The notes beneath the pieces are model-generated. The model was not told the origin of the DNA and made no database searches. It saw only the letters and a program-made list of their open reading frames with translations. Source: Chitinophagaceae bacterium (GTDB taxonomy: Bacteria; Bacteroidota; Bacteroidia; Chitinophagales; Chitinophagaceae). From it: 53,665 nt of DNA. The stretch covers positions 1 through 53,665 of the forward strand of contig CANGIY010000021.1 of assembly GCA_947454235.1 (NCBI GenBank). The letters run 5' to 3'. This document shows, piece by piece, positions 12,070 through 53,665 of the stretch. The stretch's first letter is position 1. Each line of letters begins with the position of its first letter. The position numbers were made by a program, and so were the translations under genes.

Positions 12070-12666
12070 TTACCCCTTCACGCTAATTATCTTACTAGAA
12101 ATAAGTTGTTCCTCGAAAACCTGAGCGAGGCTCGCCGTTTTTTGTTCTGAGAATTGGACTGTACATTGATTGAACATATCCCATATATCTCGATAGTCAA
12201 CCCAAAACGAAGCTGTACCCTTATCTTCTTGGTTTCCAGTAGCCGGCGCAATCGAAAAAATACGCCGCTGTATTTTACCCAACGATTTTACGTATAACCA
12301 ATCTTCGACAATTAAATATTTTTGGACATTGCCTGTGCCCGCAACATCTGAAATTTGCGATTGCTGCATAGGATTGTTGAGCCCAGCAACGCCCTCTCCG
12401 TACGCCCTAACTGAACCACTTTTCACCGCTCTCATCAACAATCCGCAAAGCGATGGGCCATCACTGGTTTTATTGAGCATTTGGTTGGCCGCTTCACCCA
12501 CATTCACTTCCCTAACCACACGCTTCCGCTACAAAACATCACTTTCAGCTATTTTAGGAAAATGGCTCGCATAAGCAGTTTTACTGGATACTGCTATAGG
12601 TTGTTGTGCAAACGCACTGCCACCCAACAATATTAAAGTTATTGCTGTAAGTACGAATCTTTTCAT
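12070..12666 (-). pseudogene. GldN/PorN-family T9SS gene interrupted by an in-frame TAG
   Basis: Read from ATG 12666, the frame gives a signal peptide (MKRFVLTAITLILLGGSAFA, then QQPIAVSS) and continues to SDVL at residue 45. A TAG stop follows at codon 46 (12529-12531). The same frame then runs open as RKRVVREVNVGEAANQ to a stop at 12070, for 199 codons in all. The part after the stop matches GldN/PorN: 'REVNVGEAANQ', 'LLMRAVKSGSVRAYGEG', 'YLIVEDWLYV' and 'FWVDYRDIWDMF'. In the family a Trp often stands near the interrupted position ('DVxW'), so TGG to TAG is the likely change. GldN is a periplasmic partner of GldK in the T9SS ring. This copy is shorter than classical GldN (about 300 aa) and is not next to gldKLM, so it is a paralogue. 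A GTG at 12519 could restart translation but would lack the signal peptide. Confidence 0.85.
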
Positions 12667-12725
12667 GTAATAGCTTTTAATGAAGTTATGACATGTAACG
12701 TGAACTACAAAAATTTATTGTGTAA

Positions 12726-12882
12726 GTGAAGTTGACAAAATAAATTCCATCAAGTTTAATTATTATGTTTCTTTAGTGCTAGGCGCAAAATCCGAGAATA
12801 GTGAACTATTTAAGGACTTTTGCAACGACGCAGAAATGGAACAGAATGGTTGAAATGGTGGTATTTATTTTGTCATCTTCAC
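12726..12882. mobile_element. 157-bp MITE-like palindromic element with 20-bp terminal inverted repeats
   Basis: GTGAAGTTGACAAAATAAAT at 12726-12745 and its inverted copy at 12863-12882 match at 19 of 20 positions. Both ends are flanked by TAA (12723-12725 and 12883-12885), a possible 3-bp target duplication. The centre is also palindromic: GCAAAA (12785-12790) pairs with TTTTGC (12818-12823), and AATAGT with ACTATT around 12804, which is the midpoint of the terminal repeats. No coding frame is present. It fits a non-autonomous element moved by a transposase elsewhere; no matching transposase is visible here. Confidence 0.6.
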
Positions 12883-47246: not shown

Positions 47247-47551
47247 TTTTTGCATATTCAACAAGCAACAATCATTTTGTTAAAAAATCATAATACCACA
47301 ACTTCTTGCTACAATTTCTTGCTACAAAAAAAGCTTAGAGCATAAGTATTTATAACCATTTTTAGACTCTTTTATTGTGCATTTTGATTGAAACTCAATA
47401 GCATCATACCTCTTTACTCACACAACTGCATAATATTAGTAGAAAATCCTTCAAAAAACACCTCAAACCCCTGTTACATTATAAATTTTTGTCTAAATTT
47501 GAAACTTTATTATTGAACCACTTTTTTTGGAAAACTGCGCAAGCATTTTAT
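47231..47551. other. 320-bp AT-rich divergent intergenic region
   Basis: It separates the lipoprotein gene (minus) from the giant surface gene (plus) and carries the promoters of both. It also contains a short tandem repeat: TTCTTGCTACAA at 47303-47314 and again at 47316-47327 (13-bp period). No coding frame or RNA gene was recognised. Confidence 0.6.
47496..47503 (+). promoter_or_regulatory. -7 box of the giant surface-protein gene
   Basis: TAAATTTG is an exact TAnnTTTG match ending 48 nt before ATG 47552. No convincing -33 TTG at the expected distance. Confidence 0.45.
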
Positions 47552-50500
47552 ATGAGAAAAATTCTATTACCATTATTCTCCCTATCTCTATTTTCCCTCC
47601 TTGCATTTTGGGGCAACAATGTTTCAGCACAAAGAATTGATACCTACGCAGGTAACGGTTCTTCATCTTCAACAGGAGATGGAAGTGCAGCAACTCTTGC
47701 AGGCATCGGAAACCCGGCAGGCATCACCGGCGACCTTTCAGGCAACATCTACTTTACCGACCCTACCAACCACGTTGTGCGAAAAATTGATGGTTCGGGA
47801 ATCATTTCTACTATAGCCGGGACAGGAACATCGGGTTCAGCAGGCGATGGCGGCATGGCTACCGATGCAACACTTGGAACACCATGGGGTATAGCAGTCG
47901 ATTTGTCGGGAAACATATTTGTAAGCGACCGAACCAATAACGTAATCAGAAAAATTGATGCAAGTGGCTTTATTAGTCACTATGCTGGTGGAGGCGTTTT
48001 GCTGGGCGATGGCGGTAGCGCACTTGTTGCTATGCTCGCTTCACCTATGGGACTGTCAATTGACGGTGGCGACAATTTATATATCGCTGACAGGGACAAT
48101 TTCAGAATTCGTAAAATCAGCTCGATAGGAATTATCTCGACAGTTGCAGGAAACGGTTCGTTTGGCAGCACTGGCGATGGATCACTGGCTGTTTCTGCAC
48201 CATTGGTTTCTCCAACGGGCGTAGCTGTCGACCCTTCAGGCAATATTTACATCACTTCAACTTCCGACAATAAAGTTCGCCACGTAAACCTTTTCGGCGT
48301 TATCTCAACATTTGCAGGTAACGGTACAGCGGGAAGCACCGGCGACGGTGGTTTAGCTACCTCTGCACTGCTCAACAATCCAATAAGCGTTAACAGCGAC
48401 GGATCGGGTAATGTATACATCTGCGACCAAAACAACTTCAAGGTGCGCATGGTGAATACTTCAAACATCATCAGTATCACTGCCGGCACTGCAATTTCAG
48501 GCTATTCTGGTGACGGTGGAAATCCTGCTACCGCACAACTCACATCCCCTTCTGCTGTTTACATTGATGGTTCAGGCTTTATTTACATAGCTGACGCAGG
48601 TAACTCAACGATAAGAAGAATCATTCCTGCATGCTCGGGTATGCCATCAGGCGGTGATGCGATAACAGACTTAAACCTCGTTTGCGATGCCTCAATTTAC
48701 CACTTGAGTCTTTCAGGAGCAACAATTTCATACGCCGGCGATTTACAATATCAATGGCAAAGCTCAGCAGACGGATCTTCTTGGGGTTCTATCGGCGGTG
48801 CGACTGACTCTACTTATACCAACAACGCCACATTTACAACGTATTTCAGATGTTTAGTGACTTGCCCGTCTTCCGGGCTCGGATCTTTTTCAAACAATGT
48901 AAAAGTTAACCACTCAACAATTTGCTATTGTTCACCATCATACACTTTCGCTTCATTAAGCTGCGGCTATTTTGGTTACAACATTGCCACTTTTAAGACA
49001 CTTGGTGAATCAGGTACTTCTATTAACGATGTTTCATCATGTACCGGTGCCGGTTATGAAGATAAGACTTCATCAGTCGTTACCTACAACCTTTCTACCA
49101 GCTATTCCGATTCTATGCGTTGCGATAGCCCTGTGACGATGCAAGCGCAGGTTTGGATAGATTTCAATGATAACGGCACGTTTGAAAACACAGAAAGCGT
49201 TGGTGGCACTAATAGTTACGGCAACACTTTGACTGGCTTTAGTATTTCAATTCCTGCTTCTGTTTCAACAGGCATGCACCGTATGCGTGTTGTTACTAGC
49301 TCGGGTGGCTCCCTTTACCCTGGCCTTGATGCTTGTACATTGGGCTACTTTTATGGCGAAACCCGTGACTATACCGCTAAAATCACTCCTTTACCAAACT
49401 GCTCCGGCACACCAACAGCAGGAACTGTTGTAGCTCCTTACAGCGCATGTTTATCTACAAGCTTCAATTTGAGTCTTAGTGGCACTACCTCTGCGTCTGG
49501 TTTGAGCTATCAGTGGGAGCAATCATCTGACAGCACATCATGGAGCACTATTTCAGGTGCAACCAACAATACAGTATCCTTAACCGAATCTTCTACTACG
49601 TTCTACAGATGTAAAGTAGTTTGTTCTTTCTCAGGGTTTTCAAGTTTAACTCCCGGCAAAAAAGTGGTTCATTTAGGATTTTGCTATTGTACACCTGCCT
49701 ACACTGCTGCCAGTGATGGCTGCACAATAGGAACCAGCATCACTCAGTTTGCAGTAAATGGCGAAAGCAGCTCGTCGATTAATGACTTGTACGCATGTGA
49801 TGGTAGTGGTTACGTAGATCAAACTTACTACAGTGTGCAACTCCAACAAGCATCTTCTTATACAACAACTATCTCAGGTACCGCTACATACGCAATGGAT
49901 GCCCAGGTTTGGATAGATTTCAATGATGATGGTACTTTCCAATCTTCGGAAACTGTTGGTGGACTTAACACATACGCTGTCGGCGGTGCGTTCCCTATTT
50001 CAATTCCGTCTGATGCAACAACTGGCGACCACAGAATGAGAATCGTAACCATTTACGATGGCGATGGATATAGGTATCCTTCTTTGGATCCTTGTGCATT
50101 TTTCTATGATTACGGTGAAGCACGAGACTATATGGCACACATTACGGCTCTTCCAACTTGTTTAGGAACTCCGGTTGCTGGCACACTTTCAGGTACCGGT
50201 AGCGTTTGTGCTTCAACTTCTTACTCTTTGACACTTACAGGCATGACTGTTGGTGCGGGTATCACATACCAATGGCAACAATCATCTGATACTATTTCAT
50301 GGTCTAATATTTCTGGCGCAACAACCAGTTCATACTCAGGCACTGAATCATCTACAACATATTTCAGGGTTGTAGTTAGCTGCCCCGCTGCCGGCACATT
50401 AGCTATCAGTAACAACCACGCAGTTAATTTCAGTACAATCTGCTATTGCACTCCTTCTTATACTTCTGCATTAACTTCTTGCAGTACTCTTGGTTTGGCA

Positions 50501-53500
50501 ATTCAGGAATTTAAAGTGAGTGGATCTGCTGGCTCTTCGTTAGATGATGCTTCATTCTGTACAGGTACTGGTTATGAAAATTTAAGTTCAACTTTGAACG
50601 TCAATCTTTCTCAAAGCTCATCTGACACAGCCCTTCTCTATTTCTCTTCTTCATCATCATCAATGGACGCTCAAGTTTGGATTGACTTCAATGATAATGG
50701 CACTTTCGAAGGCACCGAGTCGGTAGGTGGTGCAAATGGTTTTAGCTCACCGGGCACTATTATGTTGAACATTCCTTCAACTGCAACACTAGGTTCTCAC
50801 AGAATGAGGGTTGTTACGAGCCAAGACGGTGTTGGATTTGTTTATCCAACTATGGATCCTTGTACTTCGGGCTACACGTTCGGTGACGCACGCGATTATG
50901 CAGCTACTATTATTAATCCAACTTGTTCCGGTACACCAACTTCAGGAACAGCGAGTGCTACCGTAACAACAGGTTGTGCTCCTTTGTCTACAATATTATC
51001 AGTGAGCGGTGCTTCTTCAGGATCAGGAATTACCTACCAATGGCAGTCTTCTCCTGATGACATTACGTATTCCAACATAAGTGGTGCAACAAACGCAACT
51101 TTTGCAACATCAGCCGGAACTACTACCTACTATCGTTGTAATGTAATCTGTTCTTTCTCTGGCCTCAATGCTGCTACAACTGGCGTACTTGTTACTGTAA
51201 ATACTGCTCCAACAGTTGCAGTTATCACAGGAACACCAACTGTTTGTGCAGGAAGCACAACTTCACTTTTCGATGCAACAAGCGGTGGTAGCTGGACTAG
51301 CTCGAACCTTTCTGCGGCAACAGTAAACGCTTCCGGCGTAGTTACGGGTGTAGACGCAGGCTCTACTAACATATCTTACTCTGTTACTAATGCTTGTGGA
51401 ACTACTTCAGTAGGTCAAGCAGTTACAGTAAGTGCATCACCATCAGCGGGTACAGTTTCTGGTCCAATCACACTTTGTGTAGGAGGTACTGGCTCTTATA
51501 CTTCAACTATTTCAGGTGGTAGCTGGACTTCTGCTACTACTTCAATTGCAACTATTTCAGGTACTGGTACAGCTGGTGGTGTTTCAACCGGTTCTGATGT
51601 TTTATCTTATTCGGTGACCAATGCATGCGGTACTGCAATTGCTACTTACGACATCAATGTAAGCGCAACTGCTTCAGCAGGCACTATATCTGGCGCTACC
51701 AACGTTTGTACGGGTGGCACTATTTTATTAACCGATGGCGTAAGTGGCGGTACATGGTCAAGCAGCGATGCATCAAGGGCTACAATCAGTGGTACTGGTG
51801 TCGTAACTGGTGTGCTCGCAGGTGCTGTTACTATTTCATATACAGTTTCGGGAGGTTGTACTCCTGCTGTCGCTACATATAATATAACAGTAACTACTAC
51901 CCCACTTGCAGGTACTATTTCAGGTCGCTCACTTATTTGTTTAAGTGTTCCCGATACTTTCACTGAAACAGTTTCAGGTGGTGTGTGGAGCAGCAGTAAC
52001 CCTGCGGTGGCTACAGTAACTGCAACAGGTATAGTTTCTGGCGTATCGACTGGTGTTGATACAATATATTATATAGTATCCAACTCTTGCGGAACCACAG
52101 GTACATACTTACCAATATCTGTTAACCTTCTTGCTGACCCTGGCACCATCTCTGGTACTACTGCAGTTTGTGCCGGTTACACAACCAATCTTTACGAAAC
52201 TGTATCTGGTGGAACCTGGAGTAGTTCAAGTTCTTCAATTGCAACTGTTAACTCTTCTGGTGTTGTAAGAGGTGTCACTACTGGATCAGCTACTATTTCT
52301 TATTCAGTTACCAATGCCTGCGGTACACGTTCAGCTACAGCAAATGTGACTGTAACTGCGTTCCCAACAGCGGGAACTATCTCTGGTCCAACAACATTAT
52401 GTTTGGGAACTCCGGCATCTTATACTGATACTGTTACCGGTGGTGTTTGGTCGAGCGGCCTTACTTCTGTTGCAACAATTAGTTCAACTGGTGTTGTAAC
52501 ACCATTAACGACTGGGTCGGTTAATATCTATTATTCTGTTACCAACGCATGTGGTTCTACAAACGTAACAATGACGTTGAGCATTATCACCGCTCCATCA
52601 GCTGGAACAATTTCGGGTACTTCAACAATCTGTCAGGGTGCAACAACTGCACTTTCTGAAACAGTAAGTGGTGGTACATGGAGCAGCAGCGATTCTACCA
52701 TTGCACGAGTGAACACTTCAGGATTAGTAACAGGTGTTGCAGGTGGTCGTCCGACAATCACTTACACAATAACAAATGCTTGTGGCACTACAAATGCTAC
52801 AAATAATATGACCATCAATCCTCTACCAAGTGTAGGCTCTATTAGTGGTCCATCTTCACTTTGTATTACCTCTCCTACTACATATATAGATACAGCAGGT
52901 GGTGGCACCGGTACATGGTCATCGTCAACTACATCTGTGGCAACAGTGTCAAGTACAGGCAGGGTTACTCCTGTTTCAGCCGGTACTACTACCCTTTCGT
53001 ACAGTCGCACCAACAGTTGCGGAACTAATGTTGCTACAACGGCAATCACAGTAAGCAACACTGCAAGTGCTGGTACAATTTCTGGTGGCTCATTTGTTTG
53101 TCCTGGCGACAGTATCTTATTGACAGATGCTGCAACTGGCGGCGTATGGAGTTCAACAAATACTGCTGCCGCTACTGTAACAACTGGTGGTCGCGTTTAT
53201 GGAGTGACACCAGGCACTACTACTATATCTTATACTGTAGCTAATGCTTGCGGAACTTCTGCAACATCAAGAACCATCACGGTTAACCGCAGCTCATCAT
53301 CAGGTACTATCGATGCGACCTCAGGCACATCTGTTTGTGCTGGTGCAACATTGAGTGTTACAGATACTACAATCGGTGGTACATGGTCATCAAGCAACCC
53401 ATCAATTGCGACGGTAGATGCAAGTGGTGACATCACAGGTGTTTCTTACTCTGGTGGCTCAGCTACTATCTCTTACACTGTGAGCAATAGCTGCGGCACT

Positions 53501-53665
53501 AATACATCTACAGTTTCTATCAGCGTGCTTCCGGCACCAATGTTGAGTGCAATCACAGGTTCAAGTGCATTGTGTACTTCAACATCTTATACTTACAGCG
53601 ATTCTTACTTCGGTGGTACTTGGAGCTCAAGCAATCCATCAGTTGCTACCATTGCTGCAACAACA
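47552..53665 (+). CDS. Giant modular surface protein (NHL, Ig-like/GEVED, Ig-like array), partial
   Basis: At least 2038 residues, open to the window edge. Signal peptide 1-26 (LFSLSLFSLLAFWGNNVSAQ). Residues about 30-360 carry six NHL-type repeats ('GIISTIAGTGTSGSAGDGG', 'LGTPWGIAVDLSGNIFVSD'), a likely beta-propeller. Residues about 367-1220 hold four Ig-like domains ('LQYQWQSSADGSSW' pattern) alternating with three GEVED domains ('AQVWIDFNDNGTFENTESVG', 'RMRVV', 'YGETRDYTA'), in units of 253 residues. From residue 1224 an array of Big_2-like Ig repeats of about 77 residues begins, each with the pattern T-I-S-G, C-x-G, GG-x-W-S-S, A-T-V, T-G-V, N-x-C-G-T, so two Cys per repeat. The far end, where a T9SS sorting domain would be expected, is not visible. 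Probably an adhesin. Confidence 0.93.
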   Translation, partial: MRKILLPLFSLSLFSLLAFWGNNVSAQRIDTYAGNGSSSSTGDGSAATLAGIGNPAGITGDLSGNIYFTDPTNHVVRKIDGSGIISTIAGTGTSGSAGDGGMATDATLGTPWGIAVDLSGNIFVSDRTNNVIRKIDASGFISHYAGGGVLLGDGGSALVAMLASPMGLSIDGGDNLYIADRDNFRIRKISSIGIISTVAGNGSFGSTGDGSLAVSAPLVSPTGVAVDPSGNIYITSTSDNKVRHVNLFGVISTFAGNGTAGSTGDGGLATSALLNNPISVNSDGSGNVYICDQNNFKVRMVNTSNIISITAGTAISGYSGDGGNPATAQLTSPSAVYIDGSGFIYIADAGNSTIRRIIPACSGMPSGGDAITDLNLVCDASIYHLSLSGATISYAGDLQYQWQSSADGSSWGSIGGATDSTYTNNATFTTYFRCLVTCPSSGLGSFSNNVKVNHSTICYCSPSYTFASLSCGYFGYNIATFKTLGESGTSINDVSSCTGAGYEDKTSSVVTYNLSTSYSDSMRCDSPVTMQAQVWIDFNDNGTFENTESVGGTNSYGNTLTGFSISIPASVSTGMHRMRVVTSSGGSLYPGLDACTLGYFYGETRDYTAKITPLPNCSGTPTAGTVVAPYSACLSTSFNLSLSGTTSASGLSYQWEQSSDSTSWSTISGATNNTVSLTESSTTFYRCKVVCSFSGFSSLTPGKKVVHLGFCYCTPAYTAASDGCTIGTSITQFAVNGESSSSINDLYACDGSGYVDQTYYSVQLQQASSYTTTISGTATYAMDAQVWIDFNDDGTFQSSETVGGLNTYAVGGAFPISIPSDATTGDHRMRIVTIYDGDGYRYPSLDPCAFFYDYGEARDYMAHITALPTCLGTPVAGTLSGTGSVCASTSYSLTLTGMTVGAGITYQWQQSSDTISWSNISGATTSSYSGTESSTTYFRVVVSCPAAGTLAISNNHAVNFSTICYCTPSYTSALTSCSTLGLAIQEFKVSGSAGSSLDDASFCTGTGYENLSSTLNVNLSQSSSDTALLYFSSSSSSMDAQVWIDFNDNGTFEGTESVGGANGFSSPGTIMLNIPSTATLGSHRMRVVTSQDGVGFVYPTMDPCTSGYTFGDARDYAATIINPTCSGTPTSGTASATVTTGCAPLSTILSVSGASSGSGITYQWQSSPDDITYSNISGATNATFATSAGTTTYYRCNVICSFSGLNAATTGVLVTVNTAPTVAVITGTPTVCAGSTTSLFDATSGGSWTSSNLSAATVNASGVVTGVDAGSTNISYSVTNACGTTSVGQAVTVSASPSAGTVSGPITLCVGGTGSYTSTISGGSWTSATTSIATISGTGTAGGVSTGSDVLSYSVTNACGTAIATYDINVSATASAGTISGATNVCTGGTILLTDGVSGGTWSSSDASRATISGTGVVTGVLAGAVTISYTVSGGCTPAVATYNITVTTTPLAGTISGRSLICLSVPDTFTETVSGGVWSSSNPAVATVTATGIVSGVSTGVDTIYYIVSNSCGTTGTYLPISVNLLADPGTISGTTAVCAGYTTNLYETVSGGTWSSSSSSIATVNSSGVVRGVTTGSATISYSVTNACGTRSATANVTVTAFPTAGTISGPTTLCLGTPASYTDTVTGGVWSSGLTSVATISSTGVVTPLTTGSVNIYYSVTNACGSTNVTMTLSIITAPSAGTISGTSTICQGATTALSETVSGGTWSSSDSTIARVNTSGLVTGVAGGRPTITYTITNACGTTNATNNMTINPLPSVGSISGPSSLCITSPTTYIDTAGGGTGTWSSSTTSVATVSSTGRVTPVSAGTTTLSYSRTNSCGTNVATTAITVSNTASAGTISGGSFVCPGDSILLTDAATGGVWSSTNTAAATVTTGGRVYGVTPGTTTISYTVANACGTSATSRTITVNRSSSSGTIDATSGTSVCAGATLSVTDTTIGGTWSSSNPSIATVDASGDITGVSYSGGSATISYTVSNSCGTNTSTVSISVLPAPMLSAITGSSALCTSTSYTYSDSYFGGTWSSSNPSVATIAATT
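48923..50440 (+). repeat. 759-bp (253-aa) GEVED/Ig-like repeat units
   Basis: The motif encoding CYCxPxYT begins at 48923, 49682 and 50441, exactly 759 bp apart both times. Each unit encodes one GEVED domain followed by one Ig-like domain. The third GEVED continues beyond 50440 to about 50920. The DNA copies have diverged while the length stays fixed. Confidence 0.9.
51221..53665 (+). repeat. 231-bp (77-aa) Ig-like repeat array, at least 11 units
   Basis: The codons for the [T/V]-[I/V]-S-G start of each unit lie at 51221, 51452, 51683, 51914, 52145, 52376, 52607, 52838, 53075, 53306 and 53549. Eight of ten intervals are exactly 231 bp; the others are 237 and 243. All are in the frame of the giant gene. 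The last unit is cut by the window edge. Confidence 0.92.

Follow-up and report, generated by a model that had tools for sequence, protein, structure and literature searches.

A gene of the GldN family on the minus strand of the window, by which we mean the whole stretch of 53,665 nucleotides that was analysed, is split by an in-frame amber codon, and we consider it, with a probability of about three in four, to be a recent nonsense pseudogene of a dispensable, short orphan GldN paralog. The reading frame starts at ATG 12666-12664, which opens the peptide MKRFVLTAITLILLGGSAFAQQ, runs for 45 codons to a TAG, and continues for 152 codons to a TAA at 12070-12072. The amber codon at 12529-12531 that the first-pass annotation reported as dividing one frame can be read directly from the DNA. 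The product with X at the stop is 198 residues long (45 + X + 152), rather than the 199 given at first. By eye, the 5′ part appears to encode a Sec signal peptide, which the TAG separates from the domain downstream. The TAG is the sole stop in the 198-codon frame and there are no frameshifts, and a single lesion in an otherwise clean frame fits a young lesion. The features are as follows.

12532-12666, minus strand: 5′ part of 45 codons, with the apparent signal peptide (by eye) and the start of the mature protein, from the sequence
12529-12531, minus strand: in-frame TAG, codon 46, at a position where relatives mostly have Trp, from the sequence and alignments
12073-12528, minus strand: 3′ part of 152 codons with the GldN-like domain, followed by the TAA at 12070-12072; the PF19841 match of a 149-aa open reading frame lies within it
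12517-12519, minus strand: GTG in the same frame a few codons past the TAG, the sole near start for the downstream open reading frame and a possible restart, from the sequence
12711-12738, minus strand: TTG-N18-TAAATTT, 72 bases 5′ of the ATG, a candidate promoter by its likeness to the Bacteroidota consensus

The family assignment was made on both the downstream and the joined frame. The 149-aa downstream open reading frame (from GTG 12519) matches the Pfam family GldN (PF19841) with an E-value of 2.8e-16 and 60.3 bits, and in a profile search of the genome positions 12079-12552 align to GldN positions 1-186 of 228 with 69.9 bits and one TAG inside the match. Both scores exceed the Pfam cut-off of 23, and the call of a GldN relative made at first reading holds. 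The upstream 45-aa piece has no Pfam match. At the stop frequency of the window, 149 codons would stay open by chance with a probability of about 0.00035; this value and the Pfam score together rule out a chance open frame.

The TAG lies at the start of the conserved GldN domain. Its column was read in an alignment of 62 GldN-like frames from within the genus, the family and the order. These are what was left of 76 after removal of the fragments of the window gene itself, repeat loci from the same genome and identical sequences, and they are stop-free by construction. Trp is present in 46 of the 62, with Tyr in 8, Phe in 4, Leu in 3 and Ile in 1, in agreement with the earlier expectation of Trp at this place. 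In the domain alignment, the same column holds Trp in 44 of 67 other rows, gaps in 2 and other letters in 21. Codon usage gave no support for coding on both sides of the TAG beyond that of many chance stops: the TAG ranked 58th among the 297 stops flanked on each side by 25 or more open codons, and the codon score of the downstream part, 0.063, lies at the bottom of the range for the 41 window open reading frames taken as genes (0.062-0.435). It is homology that carries the case for an interrupted gene.

The genome apparently belongs to Flavipsychrobacter, to judge from the holB loci of its relatives G002, G003 and G004, which match those of F. stenotrophus in identity or coordinates. It carries GldN matches at five places, and the window copy is the only one with an internal stop. 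Two places, on contigs C1 and C13, are complete gldKLMN clusters, with a protein that has an FGE-sulfatase domain (the domain of GldK), GldL_N, four GldM domains and GldN. Of these two clusters, on C1 (L076) and C13 (L075), the second has the longer and more divergent members. The other three places, on C10, C21 (the window) and C33, are short orphan GldN-like genes, those on C10 and C33 being uninterrupted. In L074:1266-5001 (C33), the orphan directly follows a gene for a DNA/RNA non-specific endonuclease, and an AbiEii-type gene and its DUF6088 partner lie close by.

These data bear on what had been called an orphan T9SS gene, shorter than true GldN, for which an intact gldKLMN cluster was to be sought elsewhere. 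Two such clusters exist, gldK, gldL and gldM are absent from the window copy's surroundings, and its 198 residues compare with 316 and 378 for the clustered GldN proteins. As a member of the GldN family the gene stands; as a core gldN it does not. Its neighbours are other genes, its profile match covers positions 1-186 of 228 and so lacks the C-terminal part, as the short orphans of the genus generally do, and it groups with those orphans as a short paralog.

The window copy lies between a holB-like and a BI-1-like gene. Among relatives, 145 holB loci were found and 80 kept, several to many of them cut by contig ends; none of the 80 has a GldN match, and none matches the window's BI-1-like or MBL neighbour. 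A conserved genomic place beside holB was rejected on this count, within the limit that contig ends set on many of the loci. The holB scan of genome contigs gave no match above 74% identity, and near records were possibly left out of it. A phage origin of the gene was likewise rejected, with no tblastn match in 50,697 phage records. Elsewhere in the window, an open reading frame of more than 2000 residues on the plus strand (47552-53665) runs off the contig and contains NHL-type repeats, three GEVED stretches and Big_2 repeats. A candidate second broken gene near 51036 was discarded, as it is antisense to the large open reading frame at 47402-53665.

TAG is an ordinary stop in this genome. It ends 10 of the 40 complete window open reading frames taken as genes, and release factor RF1 was found with 490 bits against a cut-off of 423. 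Thirty-three tRNA places were found with Rfam (150 of 258 candidates scored) and 32 of them were typed by ARAGORN; none of these 32 has the anticodon CTA, which reads TAG, in a list that is incomplete and includes no Ile tRNA. A reassigned TAG is ruled out by RF1 and by the use of TAG to end open reading frames, and the incomplete tRNA list agrees. Seven GldN matches in the genomes surveyed, the window gene included, were flagged as containing a stop, and none of the other six has an early internal stop. Those at G007:C35, G004:C14, G010:C292 and G005:C59 are terminal by their coordinates, and that at G040:C33 is terminal too. The sixth, on G054:C3 (L209:1941-2618), is a second GldN copy beside a longer one; its match to the family model extends nine residues past a TAA. 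A stop recurring in relatives was therefore rejected. Neither hallmark of programmed readthrough, a stop kept in relatives or a dedicated suppressor tRNA, was found, the latter within the incomplete tRNA list.

The window gene thus has a stop that is premature and in frame relative to its homologues, as expected of a nonsense pseudogene. One nonsense codon just past the signal peptide, at the mostly-Trp start of the domain, would inactivate the gene: translation most likely ends at codon 46, and its product would be the signal peptide plus a short stub lacking the GldN domain. The cell could probably afford the loss, as two gldKLMN clusters and two further orphans are still present in the genome. 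We infer that the TAG base is real, that the gene was working until recently and that the cell did not need it. Of the three options first proposed, a fresh pseudogene, a sequencing error and regulated readthrough, weighing the evidence favours the first. An error is unlikely but is the most credible of the alternatives. The whole lesion is one substitution, and if it came from a miscalled base, a misassembly or a minor strain variant caught in a metagenome assembly, the gene would be intact in the organism. The assembly is a draft of 47 contigs that may be a metagenome bin, and a 16S search of it found nothing (the search detected 9 of 14 controls). What counts against an artefact is general expectation: good drafts contain few substitution errors in their consensus, such an error would seldom strike a codon one change from a stop, and nonsense pseudogenes are common.

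The two ways in which the interrupted gene could still yield its domain are much less probable than an artefact. The in-frame GTG at 12519, or a later codon, could serve as a restart from which the downstream domain is made separately; the restart product would, however, be without the first conserved residues, and none of the six other stop-flagged matches shows such a split. GldN moreover works in the periplasm (PMC9127263), and a product without a signal peptide would stay in the cytoplasm. We regard separate expression as very improbable, and regulated or basal readthrough to a working full-length protein as marginally more so. The frame past the TAG is open and GldN-like, as readthrough would have it, but RF1 is present, TAG is used as a stop, and no TAG anticodon occurs among the tRNAs typed at 32 of the 33 places (150 of 258 candidates scored, no Ile). 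Nor does any relative checked have a stop at the Trp column, for which the stop flags are an independent check. Readthrough, if there is any, would rest on basal misreading, and nothing found speaks for the regulated form. A nonsense pseudogene remains the preferred reading.

The phylogenetic position of the window copy was examined in two maximum-likelihood trees. In both it falls inside a clade of nine rows with support of 100/88 and 98/96; the trees have many long end branches and a warning of joined long branches elsewhere, and which rows belong to the clade is better established than how they branch inside it. The nine rows are the window copy, the C33 orphan of the same genome, two rows from G007, one from G003, and one each from G004, G005, G006 and G010. 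A profile built from the other eight rows matched the read-through product with 68.6 bits and the downstream part with 61.6. A larger orphan clade includes proteins with one domain and with two, several of them encoded in tandem. In the ten further genomes of the genus, GldN matches number 2, 4, 6, 9, 7, 4, 7, 4, 9 and 7; they are counted as domains, so that two-domain genes count twice, and some of the genomes are incomplete. In other genera of the family, 23 of 25 genomes have one. A few of those genera have short GldN-like proteins too, and the seven GldN-like rows tested from outside the genus (six genomes, in regions chosen from the better short-type hits) fall outside the window's clade. 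The window protein itself has no match above 35% identity in the genus. Any match to it was found in 106 of 394 family genomes, the best being 34% over 125 residues, with values of up to 40% where the aligned stretch is shorter, and a close orthologue outside the genus was rejected on this basis. The parts of the literature consulted on GldN paralogs, pseudogenes and Chitinophagaceae copies contain no report of orphan GldN expansions.

Five orphans of the clade lie beside recG: L080, L087, L091, L092 and L215, in G005, G010, G004, G006 and G007 respectively. Over the ten pairs among these five genomes, recG is 82-99% identical and the canonical GldN domain 74-99%, against 28-56% for the orphans. 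In the closest pair, G010 and G004, recG and the canonical GldN are both 99% identical and the orphan 56%. For this pair dS is 0.47 for recG, 0.63 for a second neighbour and 1.41 for the orphan, which has a dN/dS of 0.22. It is the one recG-linked orphan pair with a readable dS, most of the other dS values being saturated. The orphan's raised dS points to recombinational replacement no less than to fast substitution. At another locus, the flanks of L090 and L216 are 86% and 78% identical and the orphan 29%. However, two of the tandem orphans shared by G004 and G010 are 95% and 96% identical and a third 69%. Fast divergence of the orphans thus holds for some loci, and the tandem pairs at 95-96% speak against a general rule. 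The tandem orphan GldN genes at L078, L079 and L085 (G004, G010 and G005) include two-domain proteins. Between the two-domain orphans of G004 and G010 the first domain is close, and the second lies on a long separate branch, as if replaced.

By itself the window gene is most likely a routine dead paralog, and the orphan GldN family to which it belongs is more promising. The gene points to a genus in which a hub protein of the T9SS has multiplied. By analogy, the intact orphans of the genus may be accessory hub subunits. A wider proposal, which we put forward tentatively and hold to be more doubtful than probable, is that the orphan GldN-like genes make up a diversifying family of accessory subunits of the hub or track, with one or two domains and in tandem or scattered genes, which exchange into the outer-membrane ring of the T9SS or gliding machine or modulate it. 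Copies would often arise, diverge or be replaced, and die, possibly driven by phages or competitors; the window gene would be one casualty. If any orphan copies enter the ring, its make-up may differ between species.

In PMC9127263, PMC10202324 and PMC12635249, GldN/PorN is described as a periplasmic ring subunit joined to GldK/PorK. The window gene resembles this subunit of the T9SS outer-membrane hub in its match to PF19841 and in the conserved start of its domain with the Trp column; the putative signal peptide, judged by eye, would be a further likeness. It differs in its length of 198 residues, in a profile match that ends at 186 of 228, in having no gldK, gldL or gldM adjacent, and in the TAG; the nearest solved GldN/PorN chains match its sequence with an E-value of 0.66 or worse. 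GldO of Flavobacterium johnsoniae is a partly redundant GldN paralog whose gene adjoins gldN, as reported in PMC9127263. Like GldO, the window gene coexists with GldN in its genome as a paralog, but its position is remote from both gldKLMN clusters. A further comparison is with the genus orphans L074, L080, L087, L091, L092, L215 and L217, which belong to the same nine-row clade and share the orphan position but are uninterrupted, unlike the window copy. The window copy sits between holB-like and BI-1-like genes, whereas other orphans of the genus are recG-linked or lie elsewhere.
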